From Cupriavidus neocaledonicus (GTDB lineage: Bacteria; Pseudomonadota; Gammaproteobacteria; Burkholderiales; Burkholderiaceae), in contig NZ_AQUR01000087.1 in assembly GCF_000372525.1 (NCBI RefSeq), forward strand, positions 1-64,000: a stretch of 64,000 bases of DNA. The letters are read 5' to 3'. The translations under genes were made by a program, and so were the position numbers. Position 1 is the first letter of the stretch; the number at the start of each line of letters is the position of its first letter. The notes beneath the pieces were generated by a model that was not told the DNA's origin, did no database searches, and saw nothing but the letters and a program-made list of their open reading frames with translations. This document shows, piece by piece, positions 3,709-21,108 of the stretch.

Positions 3709-5112
3709 TTAATCCACCAACCCCACCAACGCCTCCCGCGCCTCCCTCCTCAACTTCTCCAAATCCAGCCCCACCACCGCCCCATCCCGCACCACCTGCC
3801 GCCCCCTCACCAGCACATCACGCACAGGCGTCGGCTCCCCAGCCGCCACCGGCGCCGTGCCGATGTCATGGAACCCATGGAACCGCAGCCCGCTGACGTC
3901 ATAGATCGCCAGGTCCGCCGATTGCCCGGGCGCAAGCGTGCCGATACCGGGCAGCCCCAGAACCTGCGCCCCACCGGCAGTACCCCAGTGAAGCACTTCC
4001 TCCACCCGCGTTTGCCCGGCGCCGCCGAGGGCGCGGTGCACCAGCCAGGCGAAGTTGGCCTCGTGCACCATGCTGCCCGATTCATTGGAAGCGACGCCAT
4101 CGACGCCAAGTGAGATCGGCACGCCCGCATCCGCCATCGCCCGCACCGGCGCGATACCGCTGCCGAGGCGTGCGTTGCTGACGGGGCAATGCGCCATGCC
4201 GGTATTGGTCACGGCCAGCATGCGGATTTCCTCAGGGTTGACGGTGACGAGGTGCGCGAACCAGACGTCGGGTCCCAGCCAGTCGTGGTCGGCGACGAAC
4301 TGCACCGGCGTGCACTGGTACTTCTCGCGGCAGAACCTGACGTAGTTGTCGGTCTCGGACAGGTGCGAATGCAGGCGCAGGTCCATACCGCGGCCAAAGG
4401 CGGCGAGTTCGCGCAGCAGGGCGGGCGGCAGCGAGAAGGTGGGGGTCGTCGGGGCCACCACCACGCGGCGCAGGCCGTCGGGGGCGGGGTCGTGGTAGCG
4501 TGATTTCAGCCGTTCGATATCGGCCAGCATTTCGTCCAGCGTCTCGGGCACCAGCGCGGTGGCGCGCATGCCGGGATGATCGGAGGCGGACTGGATGGCG
4601 CCGCCGCGGCACAGCACCAGGCGCATGCCGAGCTCTTCGGCCACCTCGAACAGCACGTCGCCGGTTTCGGCGCCGTGGCCGTGGTGATACAGGTAGTGGT
4701 GGTCGGCGCACGTGGTGGTGCCGGACAGCAGCAGCTCCGCCATGCCCAGGCGCACCGCGGTGCGGAAGATCTTCGGACTGAAGCGCGCCAGGCGCGGGTA
4801 GGCGACGGCCGCCAACCATTGCTCCAGCCCGACGTTCATGCCGCTGGGCACGGCCTTCAGCAGGTTCTGGAACAAGTGATGGTGGGTGTTGACCCAGCCG
4901 GGATAGATCACGCAGCCGCTGGCGTCGAGGAGGCCTTCGCCGTCGTGACGCGGCAGGCTGGCACCGATTTCGGCGATGCGGCCCTCGCGGATGCGGATGT
5001 CGGCGGCGCCGGCGCGCGCGGCAGTGCCGGCGCGGCCGGTCATCACGGCGGCGGCGTTGCGGATCAGCAGGGCGCCGGCCGGCGCGGTGGTGGCGTTGGT
5101 GTTGTGCACCAT
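3709..5112 (-). CDS. Amidohydrolase, 8-oxoguanine deaminase / chlorohydrolase-like (COG0402)
   Basis: 467 aa metal-dependent cytosolic deaminase of the COG0402 family (guanine/8-oxoguanine deaminase, AtzB/TrzN, SAH deaminase). Metal and active-site motifs appear in order: NTHHHLFQ (HxH ligand pair), HSHLSET, HCPVSNARLGSG and GVDGVASNE. The start lies 4 nt after the stop of the NCS2 permease, so the two form one unit: uptake of a purine-like base followed by hydrolytic deamination. 8-Oxoguanine deaminase is my preferred family assignment because of the purine permease, but the family covers many substrates and the real one cannot be read from sequence. Confidence 0.75.
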   Translation of the reverse strand: MVHNTNATTAPAGALLIRNAAAVMTGRAGTAARAGAADIRIREGRIAEIGASLPRHDGEGLLDASGCVIYPGWVNTHHHLFQNLLKAVPSGMNVGLEQWLAAVAYPRLARFSPKIFRTAVRLGMAELLLSGTTTCADHHYLYHHGHGAETGDVLFEVAEELGMRLVLCRGGAIQSASDHPGMRATALVPETLDEMLADIERLKSRYHDPAPDGLRRVVVAPTTPTFSLPPALLRELAAFGRGMDLRLHSHLSETDNYVRFCREKYQCTPVQFVADHDWLGPDVWFAHLVTVNPEEIRMLAVTNTGMAHCPVSNARLGSGIAPVRAMADAGVPISLGVDGVASNESGSMVHEANFAWLVHRALGGAGQTRVEEVLHWGTAGGAQVLGLPGIGTLAPGQSADLAIYDVSGLRFHGFHDIGTAPVAAGEPTPVRDVLVRGRQVVRDGAVVGLDLEKLRREAREALVGLVD

Positions 5113-5116
5113 GTTG

Positions 5117-6466
5117 TCAGACCCCTTGGACGTTGTCGGCGCTGGCGGTCAGCTCGTCGGCTTCACGCGCTGGCAGGCCGTTGAGAATCAGGTTGAGGAC
5201 CACCGAAACCACGCAGGCGATGATCACGCTGCTGTGGACGAAGGGCTGCAGGAAGCCGGGCAGCTTTTCGAGCATGCCGGGCAGCATCACCGGCATCATC
5301 GCGCAGCCGAGCGTGATCGAGACGATGGAGAGGTTGTTGGGATTGCGCTCGTAGTCCACCTCGCCCAGCGTCTTGATGCCGGCGGCGACGACCACGCCGA
5401 ACATCACCATGGTGGCGCCGCCCAGCGCCGCGGCGGGGATCGATGCGAACAGCGCGCCGATCTTGGGCACCAGCGCCACCGCGCACAGCATCACGCCGCA
5501 GGTGGCGACCACCCAGCGGCTGCGCACGCCGGTGACGATCACCAGCCCCACGTTCTCCATGAAGGCGATGTACGGGAACGCCGCGAACATGCCGCCGATG
5601 GCGCTGGCCAGGCCGTTGGCGCGCAGGCCGCGGGTGGCGTCGCGCTCGGTCAGCGGTCGCTTGACGATGTCGCCGACGGCAACGAACAGGCCCATCGATT
5701 CCACCATCTGCACCACCATCACGATCACCATGGTGGTGATGGCGCCGATGTTGAAGGTGGGCATGCCGAACGCGAACGGCGTCACCATGGTGAACCATGG
5801 CGCGCGCGCGACCTCGTCGAAGCTGCCCATGCCCAGCATCCACGCCACCGCGCCGCCAACCAGCAGGCCGATCACCACCGACAGGTTGCGCACCAGCTCG
5901 CCGCCGTGCCGGTTGATCAGCAGGATCAGTGCCACCACGCCGAAGGCGACCAGAAAAAAGATGGGCGCGCCGAAATCCGGCGCGCCCCTTCCGCCTCCAA
6001 ACCAGTGAAACGAAACCGGGAACAGCGACAGGCCCACGGCGGTGATGGTGCACCCGCTCACCACCGGCGGGAAGAAGCGCTTGAGCTTGCCGATCACCGG
6101 GGCCAGGAACATCGCGATCACGCCGGCGGCGATGATGGCGCCGCAAACGCCGTTGAAGCCGAGCGCGGGATCGGTGCCGATGGCGATGACCGGGCCCACG
6201 GAGCTGAACGCCACGCCCTGCATCAGCGGCAGGCGCACGCCGAACTTCCAGAAGCCCACGGTCTGCAGCAGCGTGGCGATGCCGGAGGTGAACAGCGCAG
6301 TGCTGATCAGCATGGTGGTCTGCGCCGGCGTCATCTTGAGGGCGCCGGCGACGATCATCGGCACCGCAATGGCGCCGAGGTAGCTGACCAGCATGTGCTG
6401 GAAGCCGAGCGACGCCATCGCGCGTGCCGGCAGGATCTGGTCGACGGGGTGAACCACTGGTTTCAT
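5117..6466 (-). CDS. NCS2-family nucleobase permease (uracil/xanthine type) 1
   Basis: 449 aa inner-membrane symporter with about 12-14 hydrophobic segments. Family features: HPVDQILPARAM near the N-terminus, GLQHML-like GFQHMLVSYLGAIAVP, a QTVGFWKFGVRLP segment and the signature region TGVRSRWVVA. The NCS2 family moves uracil, xanthine, urate and other purines with H+ or Na+. The start at 6466 is preferred over an upstream in-frame ATG because it has an AGGAG box about 7 nt before it. It is co-transcribed with the downstream deaminase. A second member of the same family lies at 14600-15991, so the region imports two substrates or one substrate under two controls. Confidence 0.88.
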   Translation of the reverse strand: MKPVVHPVDQILPARAMASLGFQHMLVSYLGAIAVPMIVAGALKMTPAQTTMLISTALFTSGIATLLQTVGFWKFGVRLPLMQGVAFSSVGPVIAIGTDPALGFNGVCGAIIAAGVIAMFLAPVIGKLKRFFPPVVSGCTITAVGLSLFPVSFHWFGGGRGAPDFGAPIFFLVAFGVVALILLINRHGGELVRNLSVVIGLLVGGAVAWMLGMGSFDEVARAPWFTMVTPFAFGMPTFNIGAITTMVIVMVVQMVESMGLFVAVGDIVKRPLTERDATRGLRANGLASAIGGMFAAFPYIAFMENVGLVIVTGVRSRWVVATCGVMLCAVALVPKIGALFASIPAAALGGATMVMFGVVVAAGIKTLGEVDYERNPNNLSIVSITLGCAMMPVMLPGMLEKLPGFLQPFVHSSVIIACVVSVVLNLILNGLPAREADELTASADNVQGV

Positions 6467-6747
6467 GATGGGTCTCCTGCCGCGTACTGGGGGAAAGTGC
6501 GCCATGCCGGCGGCGGCTGGCCCGGTCTGTGGTTGCCGGGCTCGGGTCCGTCACGGTGCCATGCGCGGCGCATGGCCCACGCATGCCTTGCACAGTAGTG
6601 ATGCACGGCATGCCGTCATAGCGTTATTGCGAAGGCTGTGGCACGGGGCCGCAAGCGGGCTTGCAAAATGCGCGCCGGAGGCATCAGGGGTTTCCCTTGG
6701 GTTGCGTGAGGGCAGGGGTGGCAATACGATGGATGCGCTGGTTTGCT

Positions 6748-6773
6748 CCCCTCTCCCGCGCGCGGGAGAGGGG
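6748..6773. repeat. 26-bp perfect palindrome, GGGAGAGG repeat copy 1
   Basis: A perfect palindrome whose right half reads cgcgggagagggg. It shares the outer gtttgct-ccctctcccgc pattern with the copy at 33867-33891. Intergenic, probably a dispersed REP-like element. Confidence 0.8.
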
Positions 6774-6870
6774 TTGGGGGAGAGGGCCGGCGTGCGCAGG
6801 AACGAAAGAGATCGAATGCCGCGCTGATGTTGCCAGCGGCATTCGAGGCGGTATCGCTCTTGCAAGTTCC

Positions 6871-6912
6871 TGCCCTCTCCCCCGCCCCCCTCCCGCAGGC
6901 GGGAGAGGGGAG
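6871..6912. repeat. GGGAGAGG palindromic repeat copy 2
   Basis: The core is ctcccgc-ag-gcgggag (6890-6905), flanked by a second C-rich arm ccctctcccc and gaggggaga. It is the same family as the copy 100 nt upstream but internally expanded. Confidence 0.7.
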
Positions 6913-6976
6913 AAAGACGTCGGACGTTGAGGCGGCGTCGGTCGCCGTGGTGCTTTCCCTTCTGCTATCCAACGCT

Positions 6977-7984
6977 ATGTCACCCACCGCAGCATGGTCC
7001 GCCGCAGCCCCGCGCTCGCCAGTCTCTCGCGGCGGGGACCTCGATCGCATCCAGTCGCTGTCCGGCCGCGTGTTCGGCCCCACGCGGCTGCGCGCGGCCG
7101 AGGACGATGCGGCGCTCGATGCGCGCATCGATACCAGCACCATCGGCCGGCTCACGCTGGTGACCATCGCCTACAACCAGGCGGTGCAGATCGAGCCGCA
7201 GCCGAACAAGGACGAGTTCGTGATCCAGACGGTGCTGGCCGGCGGCTGCCGCGTGGAAACGCCGCGGGGCGCGATGCTGATGCCACCGGGCGCGACCTTC
7301 GTGTTCTCGCCCACCGTGCCGACCACGCTGTCGCTCGATCCGGGCTGCGAGCGCTTCAGCGTGGTAATCCGGCGCCAGCTGATCGAAGAGGCGTTCCGCC
7401 ACCAGTTCAGCTTCGAGCCGCCGGCGCCGATCGAATTCGACATGCAGCCGGTGGCCGACGATGGCCGTGCCGCGCGCTGGCAGGCGCTGGTGGGCTACCT
7501 GCGCGCGGAAACGCGGGTGCGGCGCGAAGGCAGCGGCGTGCCGGCGGTGGATGCCAGCATCGAACGGATCGTGCTGTCGACGCTGCTGCTCGATCGCTTC
7601 GCCGCCGACGGCAATATGCTGCCGCGCCGCTTCGAAGCGGTGCTGCCTGACTACGTGCGCCAAGCCATTGCCTACCTGCGCGCCAACCTGGACCAGCCGC
7701 TGACGCTGGAACAGATCGCCGCGCATTGCGGCGTGTCGGCGCGCACGTTGCAGCTGGGCTTTCGCAAGAGCAAGGACACCACGCCGATGGAGTACCTGCG
7801 GCTGCTGCGCCTGCATGGCGCGCGCGCAGACCTGCAGCGCGCGTCGCAGGAGAAAGGCATGGTCGGCGCGATCGCGCTGCGGCACGGCTTTACCCACCTG
7901 AGCCTGTTCTCGCGCGAGTACCGGCGTGAGTTCGGCGAGCTGCCGTCGCAGACCTTGCGCGCGGCAGCCTTGCGGCGGGACTAA
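6977..7984 (+). CDS. AraC-family transcriptional regulator
   Basis: 335 aa. The N-terminal two thirds form an AraC_binding_2-like sensor domain (FVIQTVLAGGCRVETPRG, DPGCERFSVVI). The C-terminal ~100 residues hold two helix-turn-helix motifs (LTLEQIAAHCGVSARTLQ and AIALRHGFTHLSLFSREY), followed by FGELPSQTLR as is typical. The ATG at 6977 is chosen because the frame further upstream runs through the palindromic repeats. It is divergent from NCS2 permease 1 and convergent with the CobW gene, so it probably controls one of the adjacent catabolic operons. The effector is unknown. Confidence 0.85.
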   Translation: MSPTAAWSAAAPRSPVSRGGDLDRIQSLSGRVFGPTRLRAAEDDAALDARIDTSTIGRLTLVTIAYNQAVQIEPQPNKDEFVIQTVLAGGCRVETPRGAMLMPPGATFVFSPTVPTTLSLDPGCERFSVVIRRQLIEEAFRHQFSFEPPAPIEFDMQPVADDGRAARWQALVGYLRAETRVRREGSGVPAVDASIERIVLSTLLLDRFAADGNMLPRRFEAVLPDYVRQAIAYLRANLDQPLTLEQIAAHCGVSARTLQLGFRKSKDTTPMEYLRLLRLHGARADLQRASQEKGMVGAIALRHGFTHLSLFSREYRREFGELPSQTLRAAALRRD

Positions 7985-8015: not shown

Positions 8016-9125
8016 TCAGGCGGCCTGCGCCACCGGCAGGCACACCTTCAGCAGCGTCTGCAGCCGCAGCTTGTCGAGATGGCGGCCGATGAACACGAAC
8101 TTGCTTTGCGCCGGCTCCGTACCCCACGCCTCGGCGGGATGGAAGTCCATCAACCGGTGCACCGCCTGCAGCACGTAGCGGCGCTCATCGCCGTCCACCG
8201 CGACGATGCCCTTCATGCGGAACACATCGTCGCCCTGCGCGGCCAGCAGCGCCTTCAGGCCGTGCTCGAGGCGCTGGCGATCAAATGGCTGGTCGAACAC
8301 CAGCGAGACCGAGGTCACCGACGGATCGTGGCGGTGGCCGTGACTGTCGTCATCGTGCGCGTGGTCGCAATACTCGTCGCATACGTGGTCGTGATGCTCG
8401 TCGTGCCGATCATGCGCTTGGCCGGTGTGCTCGTGCGCATCGTGCGCATCGTGCGCATCCGCCTGGATCGTCCCCGGCGTGAACCCGCCGATACCCAGGA
8501 TCTTGCCCAGGTCCACCTGCGCGAAGTTGGAGCGCAGGATCTGCGCGCCCTCGTTCAGGCGATGGATGCGCGCTTCCAGCCGGTCGAGCTGCACGGCGTC
8601 CACCAGGTCGGTCTTGTTCAGGATCACGCGGTCGGCGGCGACGATCTGGTCGACGGCCTGGTTGTCGAAGCCAGTCAGCTGGGGGTCGTCGAGATGGCTT
8701 TCGATATGCACCGCATCGACCAGCGTCAGGATGCCGTCGAGCGTGACCTGCCTGGCGACTTCGTTGTCCATGAAGAAGGTGGCGGCCACCGGGGTCGGGT
8801 CGGCCAGGCCGCTGGTCTCGACCAGGATATGGTCGAAGCGCTCGGGGCGCTCCAGCAGCTTCTGCAGGATGCGCACCAGGTCCGTGCGCACATCGACCAC
8901 GCAGCAGATGCAGCCGTTGGTCATCTGGTAGATCTCTTCGTCCGAGGTCATCACCAGGTCGGAATCGACGTCGACTTCGCCGAACTCGTTCTCGATCACG
9001 GCGATGCGGTGGCCGTGCTTCTGCGTCAGGATGTGGTTGAGCAGCGTCGTCTTGCCCGAGCCGAGGAAGCCGGTAAGGATGGTGACCGGGACGGGCGGCT
9101 GTTGTGCGACGGCAGGTGCGTTCAT
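8016..9125 (-). CDS. CobW/COG0523-family GTPase, His-rich metallochaperone
   Basis: 369 aa G3E P-loop GTPase. Walker A is GFLGSGKTT near residue 18, followed by ENEFGEVDVD, the family metal-binding GCICC motif and the NKTDLVD guanine-specificity motif. A CobW C-terminal domain ends the protein. Between them lies a stretch of about 40 residues rich in His and Asp (residues ~225-270, with CDEYC inside) that should bind Zn or another divalent metal. AGGAG precedes the ATG. It is the last gene of the molybdenum-hydroxylase operon, 54 nt after the UbiX-like gene. That suggests it supplies metal to one of the cluster's metalloenzymes rather than acting in cobalamin synthesis; this role is inferred. 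Confidence 0.85.
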   Translation of the reverse strand: MNAPAVAQQPPVPVTILTGFLGSGKTTLLNHILTQKHGHRIAVIENEFGEVDVDSDLVMTSDEEIYQMTNGCICCVVDVRTDLVRILQKLLERPERFDHILVETSGLADPTPVAATFFMDNEVARQVTLDGILTLVDAVHIESHLDDPQLTGFDNQAVDQIVAADRVILNKTDLVDAVQLDRLEARIHRLNEGAQILRSNFAQVDLGKILGIGGFTPGTIQADAHDAHDAHEHTGQAHDRHDEHHDHVCDEYCDHAHDDDSHGHRHDPSVTSVSLVFDQPFDRQRLEHGLKALLAAQGDDVFRMKGIVAVDGDERRYVLQAVHRLMDFHPAEAWGTEPAQSKFVFIGRHLDKLRLQTLLKVCLPVAQAA

Positions 9126-9179: not shown

Positions 9180-9776
9180 TCAAGCGGTGGCGACGCCGGG
9201 GCGCAGGCCTTGCCAGCGTGCCACCAGTCCGTCGTGCGGTACGTCGAACAGGTCCAGCACGCGTCCCACGGTGTGGCCGACGATGTCGTCGACCGACTGC
9301 GGATGCGCGTAGAAGGCCGGCACCGGCGGCAGCACGATGGCGCCCATCTCGGTCACCGTGGTCATGTTGCGCAGGTGCACCAGGTGGAAGGGCGTCTCGC
9401 GCGCCAGCAGCACCAGCCGGCGGCGCTCCTTGAGCATCACGTCGGCGGCGCGGGTGACGAGGTTGTCGGCCAGGCCGGTGGCGATGGCGGCCAGCGTGCG
9501 CATCGAGCAGGGCGCCACCACCATGCCGTTGCAGCGGAACGAGCCGCTGGCGATGGTGGCGCCGATATCGCGCACGTTGTGCACCACGTCGGCCATGGCC
9601 TCGATCTGCGGGCGCTGCAGGCCCAGTTCATGATGCGCGGTCAGCAGGCCGGACGGCGAGCACACCAGGTGGGTCTCCCAGCCGTCCAGCTCCGCCAGTG
9701 CCTGCAGCATGCGCACGCCGTACACCGCGCCGCTGGCGCCGGTGATGGCGACCACCAGGCGTTGCTTGCGGCTCAT
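9180..9776 (-). CDS. UbiX-like flavin prenyltransferase (catabolic paralog)
   Basis: 198 aa. Flavin prenyltransferases make prenylated FMN, the cofactor of UbiD decarboxylases. Motifs: VVAITGASGAVYGVRML at the N-terminus (FMN-binding loop), [35 protein letters not shown] and KERRRLVLLARETP. Its ATG overlaps the stop of the molybdenum subunit (ATGA), so the two are translationally coupled. A second, probably housekeeping, UbiX lies at 46639-47262. This copy most likely serves the UbiD protein at 16229-17671 in the same region. Confidence 0.88.
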   Translation of the reverse strand: MSRKQRLVVAITGASGAVYGVRMLQALAELDGWETHLVCSPSGLLTAHHELGLQRPQIEAMADVVHNVRDIGATIASGSFRCNGMVVAPCSMRTLAAIATGLADNLVTRAADVMLKERRRLVLLARETPFHLVHLRNMTTVTEMGAIVLPPVPAFYAHPQSVDDIVGHTVGRVLDLFDVPHDGLVARWQGLRPGVATA

Positions 9777-12060
9777 CCGCGCCCGCCTTCCCGCGCCGCC
9801 TTTTCCGCCAGCGCCTGCAGCACCTGCTCGGGCTTGATCGGGTAGTGGCGGAAGCGCACGCCGATGGCATCGAACACCGCGTTGGCAATCGCCGGCCCGA
9901 TTGCGACGATCGGGTCTTCGCCCACGCCCTTGGCACCGAACGGGCCGCCGGGGTCCGGCGCGGCTTCCAGGATCACGGTGCGGATCTCGGGCATATCCAT
10001 CGCCAGCGGCATCTTGTAGTCGACGAAGTTGGCGTTGAGCGAGCGGCCGCTGCGCATGTCGATCTGGTAGTCCTCGTACAGCGTGTGGCCGATGCCCTGC
10101 TGGATGCCGCCTTCGATCTGGCCCGCGGCCGCGACCGGGTGGATCACCTTGCCGACGTCGTGCACCGGCACCACCTGCCGCACGGTGATGAAGCCGGTCT
10201 CGGTATCGACCGCGACTTCGACAAAATGCGCGGCGAACGAATACGACTTGGTCGGGTGATAGGTGGCGGTGCCCACCAGTTGCGCGGCGGGAATGCCCTT
10301 GCGCGGCATCACCGCCTCGCGCACCGTCAGCGTGGGGCCGTCGCGGTCGCGCACGGCGATGATGCCGCCGGCCAGCGTCAGGGCTTCGGGCTCGCACTCC
10401 ATCAGCTTCGCGGCGCGCTCGAACAGCTGGCGCCTGATTTCGCCCGCCGCCATCTGCGCCGCCTTGCCGACCATGTAGGTGGTGTGGCTGGCAAAGGCGC
10501 CGATGTCCCAGGGCACCACGTCAGTGTCGCCATGCACGACCGATACCGCTTCGAACGGCAGTGTCAGTTCCTCGGCAACGATCTGCGCGAGCGCGGTATG
10601 CGCGCCGGTACCCAGCCCGGCCGCGCCGGTCAGCAGCACCACGGTGCCGTCCTCGTTCATCTTGATGATGGCGTTGCCCTGTTCCTTGATGCCAGGATAG
10701 GCGCTGCTGCCGTGCATCTCGCAGCCCAGGCCCCAGCCGGTGCGGACCGGCCCGGTGGTGTCGCGCGCGCGGCGGCGCAGCGCGGGCCAGTCGAGCAGGG
10801 CCATGCCTTTCTCGATGCAGGCCTCCAGGCCGTGTCCGATCAGCGGATGGTTCGAGGGCGCGATATCGCCTTCGCGCACGGCGTTCCTGAGCTTGAGTTC
10901 GGCGGGGTCCATGCCCAGGTGCGCGGCGGCCTCGTCCATCTGCACGTCGAGCGCGTAGTAGGTCTGCACCACGCCGTAGCCGCGGAAGGCGCCGGCGATG
11001 GGGCTGTTGGTATAGACGCAGCGGCCTTCCAGCAGCACGTTGTCGCAGCGGTACAGCGATACCAGCGCGGCGGTGCCGACATTGGTCACGCCGGGACCGT
11101 GCGAGCCGTAGGCGCCGGAATTGAACACCACCCTGGCCTTGCGCGCGGTGATGGTGCCGTCGTTGCGGAAGCCCTGCTTCAGCCAGATTTTTGCCGGATG
11201 GCGGGTGCGGCCGCCGAGGAAGGTTTCCTCGCGGGTGTATTCCATGCGCACCGGCCGGCGTGTCTCGCGCGCCAGCAGCGCGCACAGGAACTCATGCTGG
11301 AACAGGTCCTGCTTGGCACCGAAGCCGCCGCCCATGTGGTCGACCAGCACGCGCACCTTGTGCAGCGGCAGCCCCAGCACCTCGGCCATGATGCCGCGCA
11401 CCATGAAGGCGGTCTGGGTCGAGATCCACACCGTCAGGTTGCCGTTGCCGTCCCAGCTGCAGGTGAGCACGTTGGGTTCCATGTAGGCGGGGGTGGGGCG
11501 GCCGCCTTCGTAGACGCCTTCGAGGATGAAGTCGGCCTCGGCAAAGCCGGCTTCGACATCGCCGCGCCTGACGATCACCGGCGGCAGCACCAGGTTGCCG
11601 CCGGGCTCGCGTTCATGGAGGCGCGGGGCGTCGGAGCGCTCGGCATCTTCGGTGGTGAAGACCGCGGGCAGCGTGTCGTATTCGACCTCGATCAGTTCGA
11701 GCGCGCGCTCGGCGATCTCTTCGCTGACCGCCGCCACCGCGGCCACACCCTCGCCCCAGTAGCGCACCTTGTGGTCAAGGATGTACTGGTCGCAGGTCAC
11801 TGACGCCGAGCGCGGGTGCGGCGAGCCGGCGTGCAGCACGCGCGGCACGTTCTCGTGCGTCAGCACGGCCTTGACCCCGGGCAGCGCCAGCGCGCGCGAG
11901 ACGTCGATGCGGCGGATGCGGGCGTGGGCGACGTTGCTGCGCTTGATCTTGCCGTACAGCAGGCCAGGGAAGGGCATGTCGGCAACGTATTTGGCGTTGC
12001 CGGTGACCTTGTCGAGCAGGTCGGTGCGCTTGACGCTGTGTCCGATCACGGCGTGGCTCA

Positions 12061-12064
<4 letters not shown>
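9773..12064 (-). CDS. Xanthine-dehydrogenase-family hydroxylase, molybdopterin subunit
   Basis: 763 aa large subunit of a molybdenum hydroxylase (xanthine, nicotinate and 4-hydroxybenzoyl-CoA enzyme family). An N-terminal hammerhead domain (VTGNAKYVADMPFPGLLYGKI) is followed by cofactor-binding regions: MGGGFGAKQDLF, AGAFRGYGV, a GLGTGAHTALAQIVAEEL segment and, near the C-terminus, GAKGVGEDP, whose Glu is the catalytic base in the family. The start at 12064 overlaps the stop of the 2Fe-2S subunit (ATGA); the open frame runs further upstream but only through that gene. It hydroxylates a carbon next to a ring nitrogen or an activated ring position using water. The substrate is unknown; the neighbours argue for a heterocycle. 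Confidence 0.87.
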
Positions 12065-12560
<496 letters not shown>

Positions 12561-12573
<13 letters not shown>

Positions 12574-13445
12574 GATGCTCCGCGCAGGGCGGCCTCCAGG
12601 GCTTGTTCGAGGGCGCGGCGGGTCAGCACGCTGACCATCTGCCGCCGGTAGGCTGCGCTGGCGCGCACGTCGCTGATCGGACGGGCCTCGTCCATGGCGG
12701 CGTGCGCGGCCTGCAGGATCAGGGCGTCGGTCACGCGCTGGCCGCGCAGCAGCTGCTCGGCGCGCGCGGCGCGCACGGGTGTGGGGCCAACCGCAGCCAG
12801 CACGATGCCGGCATCGGCGCAGTGGCCGTCCTCCAGCGTCAGCGATACCGCCACGCCGACCGTGGCCAGTTCCATCTGCACGCGGCGGCCATGCTTCAGA
12901 TAGACCTTGCCGGTGTTGGCGCGCGGCGGCGGCACGGTGATGCGGGTAACGATCTCGTCCGGCGCGATGGCGGTCTTGCCGACGCCGGTGACAAAGTCCT
13001 CGACGCGCAGTTCGCGCGAGCCCGACATGCCGTACAGGTGCACCGAGGCGCCGTCGGCGACCAGCGGCGCGATCGAATCCGCCGACGGCGACGCACGGCA
13101 GACATTGCCGACCACGGTGGCGCGATGGCGCACCTGGATCGAGGCGAAGTCGGTCACCGCCTTCGCCAGGCCGGCGTAGTGGCGCTGCACCAAGCCGGAG
13201 GTCTCGACCGCGCGCGTGGTCACCAGCGCGCCGATGCGCAGGCCGTTGACCGGATCGAAGGTCAGCACGTCCATGCCCGGGATCTTCTTGAGGTTGATGA
13301 CCTGCTCGGGCTTGCGCACGGACTCCTTGATCTGCACCAGCAGGTCGGTGCCGCCGGCCAGCACGCTGGCCTTGCCGCCGCACCGGTGCAGCATGGCCGA
13401 GGCTTCGGCCAGCGTTGCCGGTTCGAAATACTCAAACGCTCTCAT
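12561..13445 (-). CDS. Molybdenum hydroxylase, FAD-binding subunit
   Basis: 294 aa CoxM-type subunit, the first gene of the operon that runs FAD, 2Fe-2S, Mo, UbiX, CobW. It has the FAD pyrophosphate loop VLAGGTDLLVQIKE and the second flavin motif TVVGNVCRASPSADS, then the CO_deh_flav_C region. The start at 13445 has AGGAGG just upstream; longer in-frame starts lack one. It reoxidises the enzyme by handing electrons on to NAD+ or another acceptor. The operon is divergent from the LysR gene at 13660. Confidence 0.88.
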
Positions 13446-13659
13446 TGCTCCTCCTGGTCTGTGCCATCGGCGGCGGCTGCCGGTCGTGCCGAAGTCGTGC
13501 GGGGCGCGCGCCGTTGAATCCATCATGGGTGGCAGGTGTTCATCGGTAAAGACCCGCAAACGGATTAATTGATCGTGTTACCCTCTGAATCAGACGCGCC
13601 GCGAAAGCCCTGTCCCTTCGCCGCAGAGCGCGCACCCCGAGATCCCGGAGGTAGACAAC
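13446..13659. promoter_or_regulatory. Divergent promoter region, molybdenum hydroxylase operon / LysR
   Basis: 214 nt between divergent starts, the usual place for LysR autoregulation and activation. An A+T-rich stretch at about 13560-13580 (ggattaattgatc) is the only such patch and is a candidate LysR box or -10 region. The half-site tgaatcca at about 13514 recurs in the inverted repeat at 16161-16199. Confidence 0.4.
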
Positions 13660-14583
13660 GTGCCCAACCTCAGCAACATGAACGTGTCGCTGCGCCAGCT
13701 GCGCGCGTTCATCGCCGTGGCGCAGGAGCGCCACTTCACCCGCGCCGCCGAAAGGCTGGACCTGTCGCAGTCGTCGGTCAGCGCGCTGATCCACGAACTG
13801 GAAGCCAACCTCGGGCTGAAGCTGTTCGACCGCCACACGCGCCAGCTGCACATCACCCAGGCGGGCGCGGAACTGCTGCCGCTGGTGAAGAAGGCGGTGG
13901 CCGATATCGATAGCGTGATCGAGAATTCCAGCGAGCTGCGCACGCTCGGACGCGGGCGCGTGTCGATCGCCGCATCGTCGATCCAGGCGGCGCTGATGCT
14001 GCCGCGCGTGATCCGTGAGTTCTGCGTCAGCCATCCGGGCGTGAAGGTGGAGCTGCACGATGTGTCCGAGCATGAAGTGACCAGGATGGTCAGCTCGGGC
14101 GAGGTCGATTTCGGCATCGGCACCATCCCCGCGGGCCAGCCCGACCTGAGCGCGCACCGGCTGCTGGACGATGCCTTCGTGATCGTGATGCCGGCGCACC
14201 ATCCGCTGCGCCGGCGCAAGACGCTGCGCTGGGAGGACGTGGCGGGACTGCCGGTGATCGGCCCGCACAAGGGCAACCCGATCCGCGACTGCCTGGACAC
14301 CGCGCTGGCCGCGCGCGGCATCACGCTGCAGCGGGTGCACGAGGTGTTCCTGCCTCTGACCATGGTCGGCATGGTCGACGCCGGCCTGGGCATCGCCGTG
14401 ATGAGCGCCGCGGTCACGCGGCTGACCGGCGCGCTGGGGCTGGCCACGGTGATGCCGACCGATCCGGTGATCCACCGCGAGATCTCGCTGCTGGTGCACG
14501 CGGACCGGTCGCTGTCGCCGCCGGCGCAGGCCTTCCGGGATTTGCTGATGCGCTATCGCGCCAGGCTGGCGGAAGCCAGCTGA
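13660..14583 (+). CDS. LysR-family transcriptional regulator
   Basis: 307 aa. The N-terminal winged helix-turn-helix has the classical pattern SLRQLRAFIAVAQERHFTRAA followed by SQSSVSALIHELE and LFDRHTRQLHIT. The C-terminal part is a periplasmic-binding-like co-inducer domain. The GTG start at 13660 has GGAGG about 9 nt before it; an ATG at 13678 is the alternative. It is divergent from the molybdenum hydroxylase operon and ends 16 nt from the convergent NCS2 permease 2, so it is the natural regulator of this catabolic region. Confidence 0.88.
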   Translation: MPNLSNMNVSLRQLRAFIAVAQERHFTRAAERLDLSQSSVSALIHELEANLGLKLFDRHTRQLHITQAGAELLPLVKKAVADIDSVIENSSELRTLGRGRVSIAASSIQAALMLPRVIREFCVSHPGVKVELHDVSEHEVTRMVSSGEVDFGIGTIPAGQPDLSAHRLLDDAFVIVMPAHHPLRRRKTLRWEDVAGLPVIGPHKGNPIRDCLDTALAARGITLQRVHEVFLPLTMVGMVDAGLGIAVMSAAVTRLTGALGLATVMPTDPVIHREISLLVHADRSLSPPAQAFRDLLMRYRARLAEAS

Positions 14584-14599: not shown

Positions 14600-15991
14600 T
14601 CATGCCGGTTCCTTGGCCAGCCCGTGCGGCTGGGCGGCTGGCGAACGGGCGTTGAACAGCAGGTTCAGCAGCACCGCGGCCAGCGTGCCCAGCAGGATGC
14701 CGTTCTGGCAGAACTTGGCCAGCAGCTCCGGCATCTGCGCGAAGAACTTGTCCGACACCAGCGGGATCATGCCCAGCGCCACGCTGACGGCGACGATGTA
14801 GGCGTTCTTCTTGTTGTCGACAAAGTCCACATGGCCGAGGATGCGCACGCCCGTGGCCGCGACCATGCCGAACATCACCAGCGCCGCGCCGCCCAGCACG
14901 TATTGCGGGATCGACGCCGCGAAGAAGGCCAGCTTGGGCAGGCAGCCCAGCACGATCAGGATGCCGCCGGCGGTGGCGCAGACCCAGCGGCTGCGCACGC
15001 CGGTGACCTGCACCAGCCCGACGTTCTGCGCGTACGAGGTGTAGGTGAAGGTGTTGAACACCGCCCCCACCAGCGCGCCGACACCGTCGGCACGCAGGCC
15101 GCGCGCCAGGTCCTCGGAGTCGACCGGGCGCCCCACGATCTCGCCTAGCGCCAGGAACTGGCCCACGCCTTCGATCATGATCACGATCATCACCACGCAC
15201 AGCGTGACCGAGGTCATGGCGTCGAAGGTGGGCCAGCCGAAGTGGAAAGGTGTGATGAATTCAACCCAGTGGGCGTTGTGCAGGCCGTCGAAACTGACCT
15301 TGCCCAGCGCCAGCGCGATCACGAAGCCCACCGCAATCCCGATCAGCACCGCCACGTTGCACAGGAAGCCGCGCGCGAACGCCACCAGCGCCAGCACCGT
15401 GCACAGCACCGCGGTGGCGATGGCAATGTTCAGCGGCAGGCCGAAATTGGGATTTGGCACCGGACCGGCCGCGGTATTGATGGTGGGATTGCCGCCCGCC
15501 GCCCAGTTGATCCCGACCCGCATCAGGGAGACCCCGATCACCAGCACCACGGTGCCGGTCACCACCGGCGGGAACCAGCGCACCATCTTGCCGACATAGG
15601 GCGCGGCAAAGTAAGTGAAGACGCCCGCCACCATCACCGCGCCGAACACCGCCGGCAGGCCCAGCGACGGATTGGAGCCGGTGGCGATGATCGGCGCGAT
15701 CGCGGTGAAGGTGACGCCCATCATCACCGGCAGGCGGATGCCGACCTTCCAGATGCCGATGCTCTGGATCATCGTCACCAGGCCGCAGCAGAACAGGTCG
15801 GCGGCAATCAGGAAGGCGACCTGGTCCTTGGGCAGCTTGAGGGCGCCGCCGATGATCATCGGCACGGCAATGGCGCCGGCATACATCACCAGCACATGCT
15901 GCAGGCCAAGGGCCAGCAGGCGCGGCGGGGGCAGGACCTCGTCGACGGGATGCACGGCGGCATTCCCTTGCGTAGGCAGGGTGGGGTTCAT
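14600..15991 (-). CDS. NCS2-family nucleobase permease 2
   Basis: 463 aa polytopic symporter of the uracil/xanthine/urate permease family: HPVDEVLPPPRLLALGLQHVL near the N-terminus, IGIWKVGIRLPV, the TGVRSRWVCAT signature and NPSLGLPAVFG. The start at 15991 has a GGAGACAGC-ATG box; the longer frame has none. It is the last gene of the unit amidohydrolase B, amidohydrolase A, UbiD, permease. It is more like typical uric acid/xanthine permeases than permease 1 in its length and central glycine-rich loop, but the substrate cannot be read from sequence. Confidence 0.88.
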   Translation of the reverse strand: MNPTLPTQGNAAVHPVDEVLPPPRLLALGLQHVLVMYAGAIAVPMIIGGALKLPKDQVAFLIAADLFCCGLVTMIQSIGIWKVGIRLPVMMGVTFTAIAPIIATGSNPSLGLPAVFGAVMVAGVFTYFAAPYVGKMVRWFPPVVTGTVVLVIGVSLMRVGINWAAGGNPTINTAAGPVPNPNFGLPLNIAIATAVLCTVLALVAFARGFLCNVAVLIGIAVGFVIALALGKVSFDGLHNAHWVEFITPFHFGWPTFDAMTSVTLCVVMIVIMIEGVGQFLALGEIVGRPVDSEDLARGLRADGVGALVGAVFNTFTYTSYAQNVGLVQVTGVRSRWVCATAGGILIVLGCLPKLAFFAASIPQYVLGGAALVMFGMVAATGVRILGHVDFVDNKKNAYIVAVSVALGMIPLVSDKFFAQMPELLAKFCQNGILLGTLAAVLLNLLFNARSPAAQPHGLAKEPA

Positions 15992-16160
15992 GCTGTCTCC
16001 TTTGGTCGGTATCACGCCGGTTGCGCATTGCGCTAACGTGTCGCCAAGGTGCCGGCGCTTCCTCTTGCGGGATGGTCTTGCCATCCTCTCGTGCGAAGCC
16101 CGCGCCTGTCCTGTCTTGTCAGTCCAGCATGACAGCGGCGCAGGGAAGGTACAACGTTGG

Positions 16161-16228: not shown

Positions 16229-17671
16229 TCACGGCACGTGGGATGCCGCACGCTCCAGCCGTGCCAGCAGTGCAGCCGCGCGCGCCATCGCGGCGGCATC
16301 GATGCGCGCGCGGATGCCGTCGAAATTGGGCCCGCGCGTTGCATCCAGCCCCATGCGTGACGTGGTGCCGACACCCGATGCCGACGGATCCAGCGCGCTG
16401 CCGGGCAGGCCGTCGACCACCACCACGTCCAGGTGCGGCTGCAGGTGCGTGGCCATGGCCCACAGCACATCCTCGTCGCGGGTGATGTCGACGTCCTCGT
16501 CCACCGCCACCACCGTCTTCAGGTACGGGTCCCAGCCCAGCAGGCCCAGCATCACCTGGCGGGCCTCGCCCGGGCGGCTCTGGCGCAGCGCCACGTAGGC
16601 GTGGAAATGCGTGCCGGAGCTGGGGTAGTGCACCGCGGTGACGCCGGGAAAGCGCTCGCGCAGCTTCTCCACCATCTCGGACTCGCGCGGGATGCGGCCC
16701 AGGTTCAGGTGCTCGGCCGAGTTGCCGCCGACCACGTCGACCAGCCACGCGTCCGTGCGCCGCATCACGCTCTGCACCCGCAGCAGGTTGTTGGTCGAGC
16801 GGTCCGACGAGTATCCGGTGAACTCGCCGAACGGGCCTTCGTCGACGCGGGCCTCGGGATCGATCACGCCTTCGAGCACGATCTCGGCATGCGCTGGAAC
16901 CAGGATGCCGTGGCGCGGCGTGCGTACCACTTCCAGCGGCGCGCCGAACAGGCCGCCGGCGACATGGCGCTCGTCCACGCCGAACGGCAGCCGCGCGGCG
17001 CCGGCCAGCATGAACAGCGGATGCGCGCCGATCACCATTGCGACCGGCAGCGGCCGGCCCAGTTCGGCGGCGCGCTGCTGCATGCGCCACAGGTGGCCGC
17101 GCGAATGCAGGCTGGTGGCGATCTCGGTCGGCGAATGCAGCATCGAGCGGTGGTAGCTGGCGTTGCCGATGCCGCTGTCGGGGTCTTCCGCGATCAGGAT
17201 CGCGTTGGTGATGTAGGGGCCGCGGTCGGTGGCGAAGTGCCGGATCGCGGGGATCGTGCGCAGGTCGACGTGTTGCGTCTCGACGTGGCCGGTGACGGCG
17301 CCGCTGTCCAGCACGCGCGGCGCGACCATGCGGCGGCTGCGGGCCTGGTATTCGGCATGGATGCCGGCGGGCGGCACGCCGCCCAGCATGCGCCCCACGC
17401 GCTCGCGCGAGGCGAACAGGTTGGTGGCGAGCGATGTGCCCAGTCCCTCGACATGGTCGAACAGCAGGGCCGGATGGCGGCCCTGCGCAGCCAGCGCCCA
17501 CACCAGCGCGGTGGGGTCCTGGTCGGCGCCGACCGGCTCGCGGATGTGCAGCACGTCGTCGGGAAAGGCCTCGCGGTAGGCGGCCAGGAACTGGTGGAAG
17601 TCCTGCGAGGTATCGTGGAAAGGCTGGCGCGCCGGCGTCGCGGTGGCGAAGGGCGCTGCGGGTGAGTTCAT
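16229..17671 (-). CDS. UbiD-family prFMN-dependent decarboxylase
   Basis: 480 aa, the normal length for the UbiD family (Fdc, AroY, UbiD). Diagnostic motifs: IGNASYHRSM with the preceding E-D acidic residues, GVIDPEARVDEGPFGEFTGY (the conserved E-x-PFGE-TGYY-type region) and HLNLGRIPRE. These enzymes use prenylated FMN and a divalent metal to (de)carboxylate aromatic, heteroaromatic or acrylic acids. A UbiX-like protein that would make the cofactor is encoded in the same region. It is followed downstream by NCS2 permease 2 and preceded by two amidohydrolase-2 genes. The substrate is unassigned. Confidence 0.87.
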   Translation of the reverse strand: MNSPAAPFATATPARQPFHDTSQDFHQFLAAYREAFPDDVLHIREPVGADQDPTALVWALAAQGRHPALLFDHVEGLGTSLATNLFASRERVGRMLGGVPPAGIHAEYQARSRRMVAPRVLDSGAVTGHVETQHVDLRTIPAIRHFATDRGPYITNAILIAEDPDSGIGNASYHRSMLHSPTEIATSLHSRGHLWRMQQRAAELGRPLPVAMVIGAHPLFMLAGAARLPFGVDERHVAGGLFGAPLEVVRTPRHGILVPAHAEIVLEGVIDPEARVDEGPFGEFTGYSSDRSTNNLLRVQSVMRRTDAWLVDVVGGNSAEHLNLGRIPRESEMVEKLRERFPGVTAVHYPSSGTHFHAYVALRQSRPGEARQVMLGLLGWDPYLKTVVAVDEDVDITRDEDVLWAMATHLQPHLDVVVVDGLPGSALDPSASGVGTTSRMGLDATRGPNFDGIRARIDAAAMARAAALLARLERAASHVP

Positions 17672-17772: not shown

Positions 17773-18687
17773 CTACCGGGTGCTGGCGTAGGTATCCTTC
17801 AGCCGCGCCAGCGCTTCTTCCTGCGTCCTGGGCGGCGCGGTCGGCTCGATGCCGACCAGCCGGGCGATGTTGTTGCCCATGTAGTCCTCGAGCCCGTCCT
17901 CATCCAGGTCCATGCCCTGCGGCGCGGGGCCGCACAGCATTTCCAGCTCGCGCAGCCACATGCCGGGTTCGTTGGGCGGCGTGTCGGTGCCGAACACGAT
18001 CTTGTCGCGCGGCAGCTGGCGCGCGAACTCGACGATGCGCGACTGGAAGCACCAGCCCGATTCGCAGTACACGTTGGGCGTGTCCATCGCCATCCAGAAC
18101 GCCTCGAACGAGTAGTTGCCGCCGGTCTGGATGCCGAAATGCCCGATGATGAAATTGACCATCGGGAATTCGCGGATGATCGGGTAGAACATCGTCGGGA
18201 TCGTGTACGGGCCGTCGCCGGTGTGGATCAGCACCACCACGTTGTACTTGGCGCAGACCTTCATCGCCGGGCGCAGCCAGTCGAGCGCGCGGTCTGGACG
18301 GTAGCCGTGCATGTTGGCATGCAGCTTCAGCATCTTGAAGCCGTACTCCTTGACATGGAATTCCAGCTCCAGCGCGCCTTCTTCCGGGCCCCAGCGCGGG
18401 TTGAAAGTGAAGTTGCCGATAAAGCGGTCGGGGTACTTCTGGCACAGCTCGGCGATATACGCCATGTAGTCGCGGATGCCTTCGCGGCCGCGGCGGTTGC
18501 CGTCGCGGTAGCCGGTGTTGCCCGGCGGCGGCTGGATAAAGCCCATGTCGATGCGGCGCGGCTTGCCGTTGATCATGTAGGGGCCGTCCATCATCTTGAG
18601 CATGCGCTCGCCGTTGAAGGGCTCGCCGGTGTGGCGCCAGGCTTCGTCGACCAGGTTGGTCGGGTGCAGGTGGGTGTCGATAATCAT
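17773..18687 (-). CDS. Amidohydrolase-2 family protein A (intact HxH)
   Basis: 304 aa TIM-barrel metalloenzyme of the ACMSD / LigW / gamma-resorcylate decarboxylase and metal-dependent hydrolase group. Putative metal ligands: DTHLHPTN at residues 4-11 (HxH), the His of LIHTGDGP, the His of IIGHFGIQTGG and the Asp of FGTDTPPNEPG. It has a close tandem paralog (18739-19641), 51 nt upstream on the same strand. Family members hydrolyse or decarboxylate ring-derived acids. Here it could act on the product of the hydroxylase or of UbiD; that order is inferred. Confidence 0.8.
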   Translation of the reverse strand: MIIDTHLHPTNLVDEAWRHTGEPFNGERMLKMMDGPYMINGKPRRIDMGFIQPPPGNTGYRDGNRRGREGIRDYMAYIAELCQKYPDRFIGNFTFNPRWGPEEGALELEFHVKEYGFKMLKLHANMHGYRPDRALDWLRPAMKVCAKYNVVVLIHTGDGPYTIPTMFYPIIREFPMVNFIIGHFGIQTGGNYSFEAFWMAMDTPNVYCESGWCFQSRIVEFARQLPRDKIVFGTDTPPNEPGMWLRELEMLCGPAPQGMDLDEDGLEDYMGNNIARLVGIEPTAPPRTQEEALARLKDTYASTR

Positions 18688-18738: not shown

Positions 18739-19641
18739 TTATGCGGCCAGGCGCGCTTTCGCTTCTTCCAGCGTGCGCGGCACCGGCGTCGGCTCCAGGC
18801 CGATCATCCGGGCGACGTTGTTGCCGAGGTAGTCCTCGAGCGTGTCTTCATCCAGGTTCAGGCCCTGGGGCGGCTCGAAGCACAGCACTTCCAGCAGGCG
18901 CAGCCACATGCCGGGCTCGTTGGGCGGGGTGTCGGAACCGAACAGGATCTTGTGCCTGGGCAGCACCTTGGCGAACTCGACGATGCGCGACTGCAGGCAC
19001 CAGCCCGATTCGCAGTAGACGTTGGGCATGTCCATCGCCATCTGGAACGGCTCGAAGCAGTACACGCCGCCGGTCTGCACGCCGAAGTGGGCCATGATGA
19101 AGTTCACCGTCGGGAACTCCTTCATCATCGGCACCCATTCGGTCGGGATGCTGTAGGGACCGTCGCCGGTATGCAGCTTGACCAGCACGCCCAGCTCGGC
19201 GCATTTCTGCAGCGCCGGGCGCAGCCAGTCCAGCGCGCGGTCCGGGCGATAGGCGTGCATGTTGGCCTGGAACTGGACCATCCTGAAGCCCAGCTTCTTC
19301 ACGTAGTGCTCGATGGCGTTGACGCCGTTCTGCACGCCGCAGCGCGGGTTGTAGACGAAGCAGCCGATAAAGCGGTCCGGGTACTTCCGCACCATCTCGA
19401 CCGTGTAGGCCATGTACGCGTCGATCGATTCGCTGCCCGACTTCACGCCGTCGGTGTAGGTGTAGATGGTGTTGCCCTGCGGCGGCTGGATAAAGGCCTT
19501 GTCGATGCGGCGCGGCTTGCCGTTGATGGTGAATGGGCCGTCCATCATCTGGATCAGGCGCTCGCCGGTGAACGGGTTGCCGTCGTGGCGCCAGGCCAGG
19601 TCCACCAGGTTCGTCGGATAACAGCTGGTGTCGATGATCAT
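18739..19641 (-). CDS. Amidohydrolase-2 family protein B, HxH motif replaced by SCY
   Basis: 300 aa paralog of the next gene, with near-identical core motifs: LHTGDGPYSIPT, MAHFGVQTGG, VYCESGWC, FGSDTPPNEPGMWL. The N-terminal metal motif THLHPTN of its paralog reads TSCYPTN here, so both HxH histidines are gone while the other ligands remain. It may be a non-catalytic partner of protein A, a mononuclear variant with different metal use (Cys available), or an enzyme of changed chemistry. The start at 19641 is chosen by alignment to the paralog's MIIDT start. It is the first gene of the UbiD operon. Confidence 0.8.
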   Translation of the reverse strand: MIIDTSCYPTNLVDLAWRHDGNPFTGERLIQMMDGPFTINGKPRRIDKAFIQPPQGNTIYTYTDGVKSGSESIDAYMAYTVEMVRKYPDRFIGCFVYNPRCGVQNGVNAIEHYVKKLGFRMVQFQANMHAYRPDRALDWLRPALQKCAELGVLVKLHTGDGPYSIPTEWVPMMKEFPTVNFIMAHFGVQTGGVYCFEPFQMAMDMPNVYCESGWCLQSRIVEFAKVLPRHKILFGSDTPPNEPGMWLRLLEVLCFEPPQGLNLDEDTLEDYLGNNVARMIGLEPTPVPRTLEEAKARLAA

Positions 19642-20223: not shown

Positions 20224-21108
20224 ATGCATGGCAACGATGCGAGGAAGGCCGCGGCGCTGCTGTCGGTTGCGCTGGGCCTGGCACTGGGCGGCTGCGGCGG
20301 CGATGGCGGGCAGACCGAGATGGTGTCGCCGACCGCCGCGGCCGCGACGCGGCACATCAACGAAACCACCACCAGCGCCACCACGCGCTGGGCCCCGGCG
20401 CTCACCGATACCTGGCAGATCCAGCTGACCGGCCGGCTCAATACCAGCTATGCGGTGACCGCCTATGACTTCGACCTGTTCGATACGCCGCAGGCCACCA
20501 TCGACGCACTCAAGGCACAGGGCCGGCGCGTGATCTGCTACTTCTCGGCGGGCAGTTCCGAGGACTGGCGTCCCGACTTCAACCAGTTCACCGAGGCGGA
20601 CCAGGGCGCCCCGCTGTCGGGCTGGGCCGGCGAGCGCTGGCTGGATACGCGCTCGGCCAACGTGCGCCGCATCATGCAGGCGCGCATGGACCTGGCGGTC
20701 AGCAAAGGCTGCGATGCGGTCGATCCCGACAATGTCGACGGCTATACCAACAGCCCCGGCCTGCCGCTGACGGCCGAGACCCAGCTCGACTACAACCGCT
20801 TCCTGGCGGCGGAGGCGCATGCGCGCGGGCTGGCGGTCGGTTTGAAGAACGACGTGGGGCAGGTGGCCGAGCTGGCCGCGAGCTTTGACTTCGCCATCAA
20901 CGAACAGTGCTTCCAGTACCGCGAGTGCGGTGCCTATACCGCGTTCACGGGGCAGGGCAAGCCGGTATTCCAGATCGAATACGCCACCAAGTACCGGGAC
21001 GCCGCCACGCGCGCCGGGCTGTGCGCCAAGGCCCAGGCGGCCAACCTGCGCACGCTGGTGCTGCCCAGGACGCTGAACGGGTCGTTCCGCTACGCCTGCG
21101 ACGCCTGA
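20224..21108 (+). CDS. Lipoprotein of the GH114 (endo-alpha-1,4-polygalactosaminidase-like) family
   Basis: 294 aa. The signal peptide ends in a lipobox (LGLALGGCGG; Cys about residue 24). The mature part is a TIM-barrel like GH114/TM1410: VTAYDFDLFDT, RRVICYFSAGSSEDWRPD, ERWLDTRS, GCDAVDPDNVDGY with probable catalytic Asp residues, and GLKNDVGQ. Known members cleave galactosamine-containing exopolysaccharide or act in envelope processes. It is likely anchored in the outer membrane. Its 3' end overlaps the convergent metalloprotein gene by 19 bp. Confidence 0.75.
   Translation: MHGNDARKAAALLSVALGLALGGCGGDGGQTEMVSPTAAAATRHINETTTSATTRWAPALTDTWQIQLTGRLNTSYAVTAYDFDLFDTPQATIDALKAQGRRVICYFSAGSSEDWRPDFNQFTEADQGAPLSGWAGERWLDTRSANVRRIMQARMDLAVSKGCDAVDPDNVDGYTNSPGLPLTAETQLDYNRFLAAEAHARGLAVGLKNDVGQVAELAASFDFAINEQCFQYRECGAYTAFTGQGKPVFQIEYATKYRDAATRAGLCAKAQAANLRTLVLPRTLNGSFRYACDA

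Follow-up and report, generated by a model that had tools for sequence, protein, structure and literature searches.

A conserved pair of amidohydrolase paralogs, one with an altered metal site, in a candidate pteridine-catabolic gene cluster of Cupriavidus neocaledonicus

Enzymes composed of two different PF04909 amidohydrolases have been described before. In AibH1H2, the hydroxylase of 2-aminoisobutyrate monooxygenase, AibH2 holds the catalytic Mn/Fe site, AibH1 carries a mononuclear site that is speculated to be structural, and disruption of that mononuclear site gave insoluble protein, according to the available parts of two papers (PMC10401708, PMC12141560). Such monooxygenases have been hypothesised to stand beside a small Rieske protein (PMC10811679). 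Another PF04909 relative, the decarboxylase ACMSD, functions as a dimer (PMC11650718). A second group of described systems concerns the breakdown of pteridine rings. Pterin is the ring system of folate, and folate and other pterins are widespread. Alcaligenes faecalis reportedly converts isoxanthopterin via 7-hydroxylumazine, tetrahydroxypteridine and xanthine-8-carboxylate to xanthine; for the ring-contracting tetrahydroxypteridine cycloisomerase (EC 5.5.1.3) we know of no gene. Isoxanthopterin and pterin-6-carboxylate are deaminated by amidohydrolases from the Sargasso Sea metagenome (PMC5270733). A Variovorax ortholog of Arad3529 deaminates folate and pteroate, and the accessible text of the same paper cites deaminase activity in Alcaligenes extracts, treats lumazine-6-carboxylate as a candidate folate breakdown product, describes as "elusive" how its Variovorax strain produces lumazine-6-carboxylate and ABG, and reports that the next candidate intermediates were not detected (PMC9513972).

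Here we describe a locus that touches on both groups. It lies in a stretch of 64,000 nucleotides of Cupriavidus neocaledonicus (the window; contig NZ_AQUR01000087.1) and contains two adjacent PF04909 paralogs, HXH, which keeps the HxH metal motif, and SCY, in which this motif reads S-C-Y. Our best explanation as a whole, to which we assign a probability of roughly 0.5, is that HXH and SCY would form a heteromer with a metal-free SCY subunit, acting in an uncharacterised pterin-catabolic pathway, possibly as a cycloisomerase.

The altered metal site of SCY

SCY is encoded on the minus strand at 18739..19641, from an ATG at 19641 to a stop codon at 18739-18741, and has 300 amino acids. HXH is encoded on the same strand at 17773..18687, and its start lies 51 nt past the SCY stop. 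Both proteins belong to PF04909 (Amidohydro_2), scoring 120.9 bits for SCY and 164.1 bits for HXH against a Pfam profile with a curated cut-off of 26.4, and they share 66% identity over 298 alignment columns. The N-termini read MIIDTSCYPT in SCY and MIIDTHLHPT in HXH, with S6-C7-Y8 of the former aligned to H6-L7-H8 of the latter; both strand-1 histidines of the HxH motif are indeed gone from the second paralog, as an earlier note on this DNA had stated. Its further statement that the two copies share all later motifs is right for strand-5 His157, strand-6 His185 and strand-8 Asp237, but it does not extend to strand 4, where Q123/Q125 of SCY replaces K123/H125 (K-L-H in HXH). SCY has also gained a lysine, K155, two residues ahead of His157, whereas HXH presents H6, H8, K121, H123, H155, H183 and D235 (own numbering).

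These positions were followed through 86 named loci, which comprise the best 80 of 174 relatives and six plasmid loci (L143-L148); being the best 80 of 174, the larger part of this sample leans to close relatives. HXH carries the PF04909 metal-ligand set, reading HLH in 86/86 loci and keeping the counterparts of H157, H185 and D237 (SCY numbering) in 85/85 full-length copies; the sites beyond HLH were scored in these 85, the copy in locus L081 being cut by the locus end. SCY does not carry this set. Its position 6 is serine in 85 of the 86 loci and glycine in one (L110), and C7, Y8, Q123, Q125, K155, H157, H185 and D237 are invariant in all 86. Three cysteines, C7, C94 and C101, are specific to SCY and occur in 86, 86 and 82 of the 86 loci, where HXH has L, N and W. 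In total, SCY and HXH differ at 28 positions of the alignment (27 residues plus one gap) at which either protein is at least 95% conserved in itself. Of 17 distant PF04909 homologs found within the order (28-34% identity), 16 have both HxH and KxH, and we therefore consider HXH to represent the ancestral state and SCY the derived one.

The loss of these residues suggests that SCY very probably works without a catalytic metal. C7 is flanked on its strand by the two positions that once held ligands, so its side chain probably points away from the metal site, and K155 may make up for the charge of the absent metal. The Cys-containing metal site that the earlier note offered as a second possibility may nevertheless draw on two other cysteines found in SCY but not in HXH, C94 and C101. 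An alternative is that SCY is itself a catalyst with a changed site, formed by S6/Y8 or by C7/C94/C101 and K155, and performs a separate step of the same pathway. The invariance of C7, Y8, Q123, Q125, K155, H157, H185 and D237, joined by C94 in every locus and C101 in nearly all, is stricter than a pure scaffold needs and speaks for this alternative. Strands 1 and 4, however, have lost every candidate ligand, C7 lies between the two site-facing positions rather than at one of them, and C101 is a tyrosine in four alphaproteobacterial loci, so that we consider an independent catalytic role of SCY improbable.

Pairing, selection and descent

All 86 loci, which by NCBI terms belong to alpha-, beta- and gammaproteobacteria, contain one SCY and one HXH gene each, in the order SCY-HXH on the same strand, separated by -4 to 141 nt (median 17). 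Thus, as in AibH1H2, two PF04909 paralogs are adjacent and co-occur. In a sample of the GTDB family, 83 of 398 genomes were positive at E <= 1e-30 and none had a single match; 81 of the 83 had exactly two matches, G707 had four (two pairs) and G617 three. In G617, the contig of locus L172 ends within HXH, after residue 161, and the third match was not located. Among relatives, 17/60 genomes were positive, each with two matches. The order sample gave 21 positives in 399 genomes at 1e-10, four with the pair and 17 with a distant homolog only, and the phylum sample gave two in 189 (the own genome among them), both with two matches; in the class sample the own genome was the only positive of 370. 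In the family of genome G037, one of three genomes was positive. The search of plasmids returned 91 records with 182 match places, two per record among the matches listed. That the THLH and TSCY proteins always occur together, a possibility raised by the earlier note, therefore held in 86/86 loci, in 83/83 positive family genomes and across the plasmid records, although these counts run over related genomes and are not phylogenetically independent. In G707, the two copies of the pair lie on contigs C3 and C4, both of which also carry a deaminase ortholog, and this points to duplication of the whole cluster.

This co-occurrence gives good support to the heteromer with one inactive subunit that the earlier note had suggested, and on genome comparison we regard it as probable that SCY and HXH act as such a heteromer, in which HXH would be the catalytic subunit.

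Both proteins are under purifying selection. In ten loci, nine from named Cupriavidus and one from Ralstonia, the median dN/dS was 0.053 for SCY (45 pairs) and 0.036 for HXH (44 pairs). These values bear on a further explanation, that SCY is a decaying duplicate without function. The loss of its metal ligands is what such decay would predict, but conservation in 86/86 loci across three proteobacterial classes, a dN/dS near 0.05 and the fixation of new residues refute it, and we give this explanation almost no credence. Degeneration confined to a single strain, which the earlier note had named as a possible outcome, is likewise excluded by the 86-locus conservation, with C7 and Y8 present in every locus, and by the dN/dS of about 0.05.

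In a tree of 40 rows (12 SCY, 12 HXH and 16 distant homologs), SCY forms a single clade with a support of 100/100, and HXH was not recovered as a clade, probably because the outgroup is very distant. No closer outgroup was available, since no pre-duplication homolog of about 35% to 60% identity appeared among the matches listed for the family, order and phylum samples. SCY would thus have originated from a single duplication, followed by loss of the strand-1 and strand-4 residues, that is, two histidines together with the lysine and histidine of KxH.

The gene cluster and its probable substrates

On the minus strand the genes follow in the order SCY, HXH, UbiD, NCS2 permease, the three subunits of a molybdenum hydroxylase, UbiX, CobW, a second NCS2 permease and a deaminase, with a divergent LysR gene after the first permease. 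The UbiD-family (prenylated-FMN) decarboxylase at 16229..17671 (-) has UbiD N, Rift and C domains and is accompanied by UbiX in the cluster; its nearest solved relatives are 6h6x/6h6v (5e-67), structures of HmfF, a decarboxylase of five-membered heteroaromatic carboxylates. An NCS2 nucleobase permease, matching a pbuX/xanthine permease model, is encoded at 14600..15994 (-), and the LysR-type regulator at 13660..14583 (+). The molybdenum hydroxylase consists of an FAD subunit (12561..13559, minus strand), a 2Fe-2S subunit (12064..12546, minus strand), for both of which the start codon is not settled, and a molybdopterin subunit (9773..12439, minus strand) whose true start is probably near 12100 and whose nearest solved relatives are 4-hydroxybenzoyl-CoA reductase, then 6-hydroxypseudooxynicotine and quinoline hydroxylases. 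The UbiX flavin prenyltransferase at 9180..9815 (-), whose start is not settled, would supply the UbiD cofactor. It is followed by a CobW-family GTPase at 8016..9125 (-), a candidate metallochaperone, a divergent AraC-type regulator at 6743..7984 (+), a second NCS2-type permease at 5117..6505 (-) and a COG0402-type deaminase at 3709..5112 (-). The GH114 gene at 20224-21108 was considered and placed outside the unit, as it adjoins SCY in part of the Cupriavidus loci only.

At E <= 1e-15, cluster proteins matched in the 80 loci as follows: UbiD in 79, UbiX in 62, CobW in 61, XdhFeS in 61 and the deaminase in 52; some deaminase matches (46-49% identity) and some XdhFeS matches (39-48%) are weak and may be paralogs. 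UbiD comes next after the pair in 79/80 loci, and the exception, L081, is cut by its end. Ten full-flank loci of Cupriavidus and Ralstonia lack UbiX, CobW and the deaminase, and because these loci end inside the hydroxylase genes, the misses reflect flank limits. The frequency of CobW in the 80 loci suggests dedicated metal loading of the amidohydrolases. In plasmids of S. meliloti, Caballeronia, Paracoccus, Ponticoccus, Ensifer and Shinella, the annotated cluster contains, besides SCY, HXH and UbiD, genes for a GTP-binding protein, a molybdenum hydroxylase and one more protein of the amidohydrolase family. Five of the six annotations include UbiX, and five a nucleobase or purine permease. In the S. 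meliloti ABS7 plasmid (L143, 16492-17080), UbiX matched in two overlapping pieces that do not appear in the listed annotation, so the gene may be frame-shifted. Clustering of recurrent neighbours gave several families, one of which (46 loci) probably represents, to judge by its place, a further molybdopterin subunit; it brought out no additional pathway gene with a recognisable name. Downstream of the cluster, a gene of the Asp/Glu-racemase family occurs in Burkholderia guangdongensis (L052, 13151-13924) and in Caballeronia (L144, 20829-21617); a role as allantoin racemase was considered for both and rejected, the best-scoring models being arylmalonate decarboxylase.

The clue to the substrate comes from the deaminase. 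The window protein matches 2PAJ, isoxanthopterin deaminase, at 2e-136 (458.9 bits), ahead of 3HPA, labelled only as AMIDOHYDROLASE (1.3e-83, 284.7 bits), and of 7WW2, labelled as 8-oxoguanine deaminase (4.5e-79, 269.7 bits). It is thus closer to 2PAJ than to 8-oxoguanine deaminases, and the deaminase of the Caballeronia locus L144 gives the same ranking with 2PAJ first. When the top four candidates per genome were scored, a deaminase ortholog (at least 65% identity) was found in 81 of 83 pair-positive and in 1 of 315 pair-negative genomes (Fisher p 2.6e-81, relatedness not corrected), two of the counted orthologs, in G641 and G029, being partial. Of the two pair-positive genomes without an ortholog, G551 has a cluster contig that stops just past the permease, and in G637, which carries the pair along with UbiD, UbiX and CobW, neither the genome search nor the 16 kb stretch around the pair yielded a deaminase ortholog. 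The pair-negative genome, G004, holds a deaminase fragment. The clue is not uniform, because the alphaproteobacterial clusters tested (four loci by NCBIfam, three by PDB) carry a different protein instead, nearest to cytosine deaminase or N-isopropylammelide hydrolase. Such a cytosine-deaminase-like amidohydrolase takes the place of the 2PAJ type in L147 (4791-6086), L148 (4759-6054), L143, L145 and L098, and in L147 and L148 it is adjoined by BMP/ABC nucleoside-type transporters and an aldolase. From these relationships it appears rather likely that the substrate of the pathway is of the pterin/lumazine type.

The proposed route and known systems

We propose that the COG0402 deaminase strips the 2-amino group from oxidised pterins or lumazines, that the molybdenum hydroxylase hydroxylates the pyrazine ring, that HXH/SCY then opens or rearranges the hydroxylated ring and that UbiD and UbiX carry out a decarboxylation, leaving a purine for ordinary catabolism. 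Within the pair, HXH would carry the metal and do the chemistry, and SCY, its empty site probably filled by K155 and Y8, would now serve as a structural and substrate-shaping partner, present as it is in every pair-bearing genome examined. In its most specific form, the proposal holds that HXH/SCY is the cycloisomerase converting 2,4,6,7-tetrahydroxypteridine to xanthine-8-carboxylate, from which UbiD would produce xanthine. The cluster supplies one enzyme for each step reported from Alcaligenes, namely the deaminase, the molybdenum hydroxylase, HXH/SCY and UbiD, and a cycloisomerase reaction would suit an amidohydrolase, because the contraction could proceed by hydrolysis of an amide and renewed closure of the ring. 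We advance the cycloisomerase step only tentatively, as a possibility that falls short of an even chance. Still more doubtful is the full claim, that this would be the first gene assignment for tetrahydroxypteridine cycloisomerase, comprising a catalytic and a metal-free subunit, with UbiD as xanthine-8-carboxylate decarboxylase.

The predicted structures (pLDDT 77.9 for HXH and 77.4 for SCY) bear on two further readings. Among solved structures, those that resemble the two models in fold are for the most part decarboxylases (by title, no fewer than 30 of the 50 matches listed in one comparison), including 2,6- and 2,3-dihydroxybenzoate decarboxylases, 5-carboxyvanillate decarboxylase, ACMSD and IDCase (5-carboxyuracil); among the matches listed, VIA-align gave Z of about 19-23 and rmsd of 2.5-4.1 over 233-265 aligned residues, and the top two structural matches of the HXH model are uncharacterised proteins. 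HXH/SCY could accordingly be a metal-dependent decarboxylase made of two different subunits and acting on a compound such as lumazine-6-carboxylate or 7-hydroxylumazine-6-carboxylate, with UbiD used at another step and SCY non-catalytic. The fold fits this at least as well as it fits a cycloisomerase. It would, however, require two decarboxylases, UbiD and UbiX being already in the cluster, and this group of decarboxylases is not known to include heteromers. We find a decarboxylase unlikely, although PMC9513972 names lumazine-6-carboxylate among the possible products of folate breakdown.

The structural matches also include oxygenases. Foldseek with the SCY model lists 8ful (AibH1H2) at rank 24 and 8sm6 (SfbO) at rank 32, and the structural comparison of the HXH model has 8uyr (DitZ) at rank 32; together with the heteromeric PF04909 composition of AibH1H2, these matches would fit an O2-dependent dinuclear monooxygenase like AibH1H2, SfbO and PtmU3. 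The ligands of AibH2, as given in the available part of PMC12141560, begin with D25, H27, H211, E265, D337 and H340, but HXH has HxH and not DxH, reading HLH in every locus, and does not show this dinuclear set. Furthermore, 8ful and 8sm6 are absent from the 50 Foldseek matches listed for HXH. Within the L143-L148 clusters the PLSDB gene tables, which have gaps, show no small Rieske protein, and the one in L145 lies some 12 kb off. We regard a monooxygenase as a very improbable reading and prefer the pterin-catabolic heteromer.

If this proposal is true, deaminase, molybdenum hydroxylase, pair and UbiD would make up a complete bacterial route from pterins, as remnants of folate, into purine catabolism. 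The cluster is likely a route for pteridine-ring catabolism for which the parts of the literature examined give no gene assignment after deamination, and this lends the pair added interest; it also proposes genes for an enzyme activity to which none is known to have been assigned. A search of the open-licence literature on UbiD with amidohydrolases, on pterin degradation and on the cycloisomerase found no paper naming the cluster in the titles and abstract beginnings of the best matches. The genes form a concrete set that can be tested in bacteria with which it is easy to work, Cupriavidus necator and Sinorhizobium meliloti among them. The pair appears to be a further case of PF04909 heteromers and a clear natural example of an amidohydrolase subunit that lacks the metal-site residues and yet is kept with its partner, through which one could study how a pseudo-subunit comes to play a part in an enzyme.

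Among described catabolic systems, the lum operon for lumichrome and riboflavin likewise acts on a pteridine-like ring and encodes hydrolases, a xanthine-oxidase-type hydroxylase and a heterocycle decarboxylase, but it differs in its thiamin-dependent decarboxylase and Rieske dioxygenase, and the words "UbiD" and "heterodimer" are absent from its text (PMC12746152). The decarboxylases of the ACMSD, dihydroxybenzoate, 5-carboxyvanillate and IDCase group resemble HXH in fold and in their HxH, His, His and Asp ligands. The ACMSD dimer consists of like subunits, whereas here two diverged paralogs are kept, one of them without HxH. In ACMSD the active site is completed by Arg239 of the neighbouring subunit (PMC11650718), a precedent for one subunit contributing to the site of another; inspection by eye revealed no counterpart of this residue in the pair. 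AibH1H2 resembles the pair in being composed of two PF04909 proteins, which there form one enzyme and here are predicted to do so. AibH1 still binds one metal, whereas SCY has lost the strand-1 and strand-4 residues; AibH2 has DxH and a dinuclear Mn/Fe site, whereas HXH keeps HxH; and the surroundings of SCY/HXH, with UbiD, UbiX, CobW, molybdenum hydroxylase and deaminase, are of another kind than those of AibH1H2. Finally, the COG0402 deaminases of the window and of Caballeronia L144 are nearest to 2PAJ, the isoxanthopterin deaminase. For this enzyme and the pterin deaminase Arad3529, the parts of the literature examined assign no genes to the steps that follow, and the SCY/HXH cluster may supply them.
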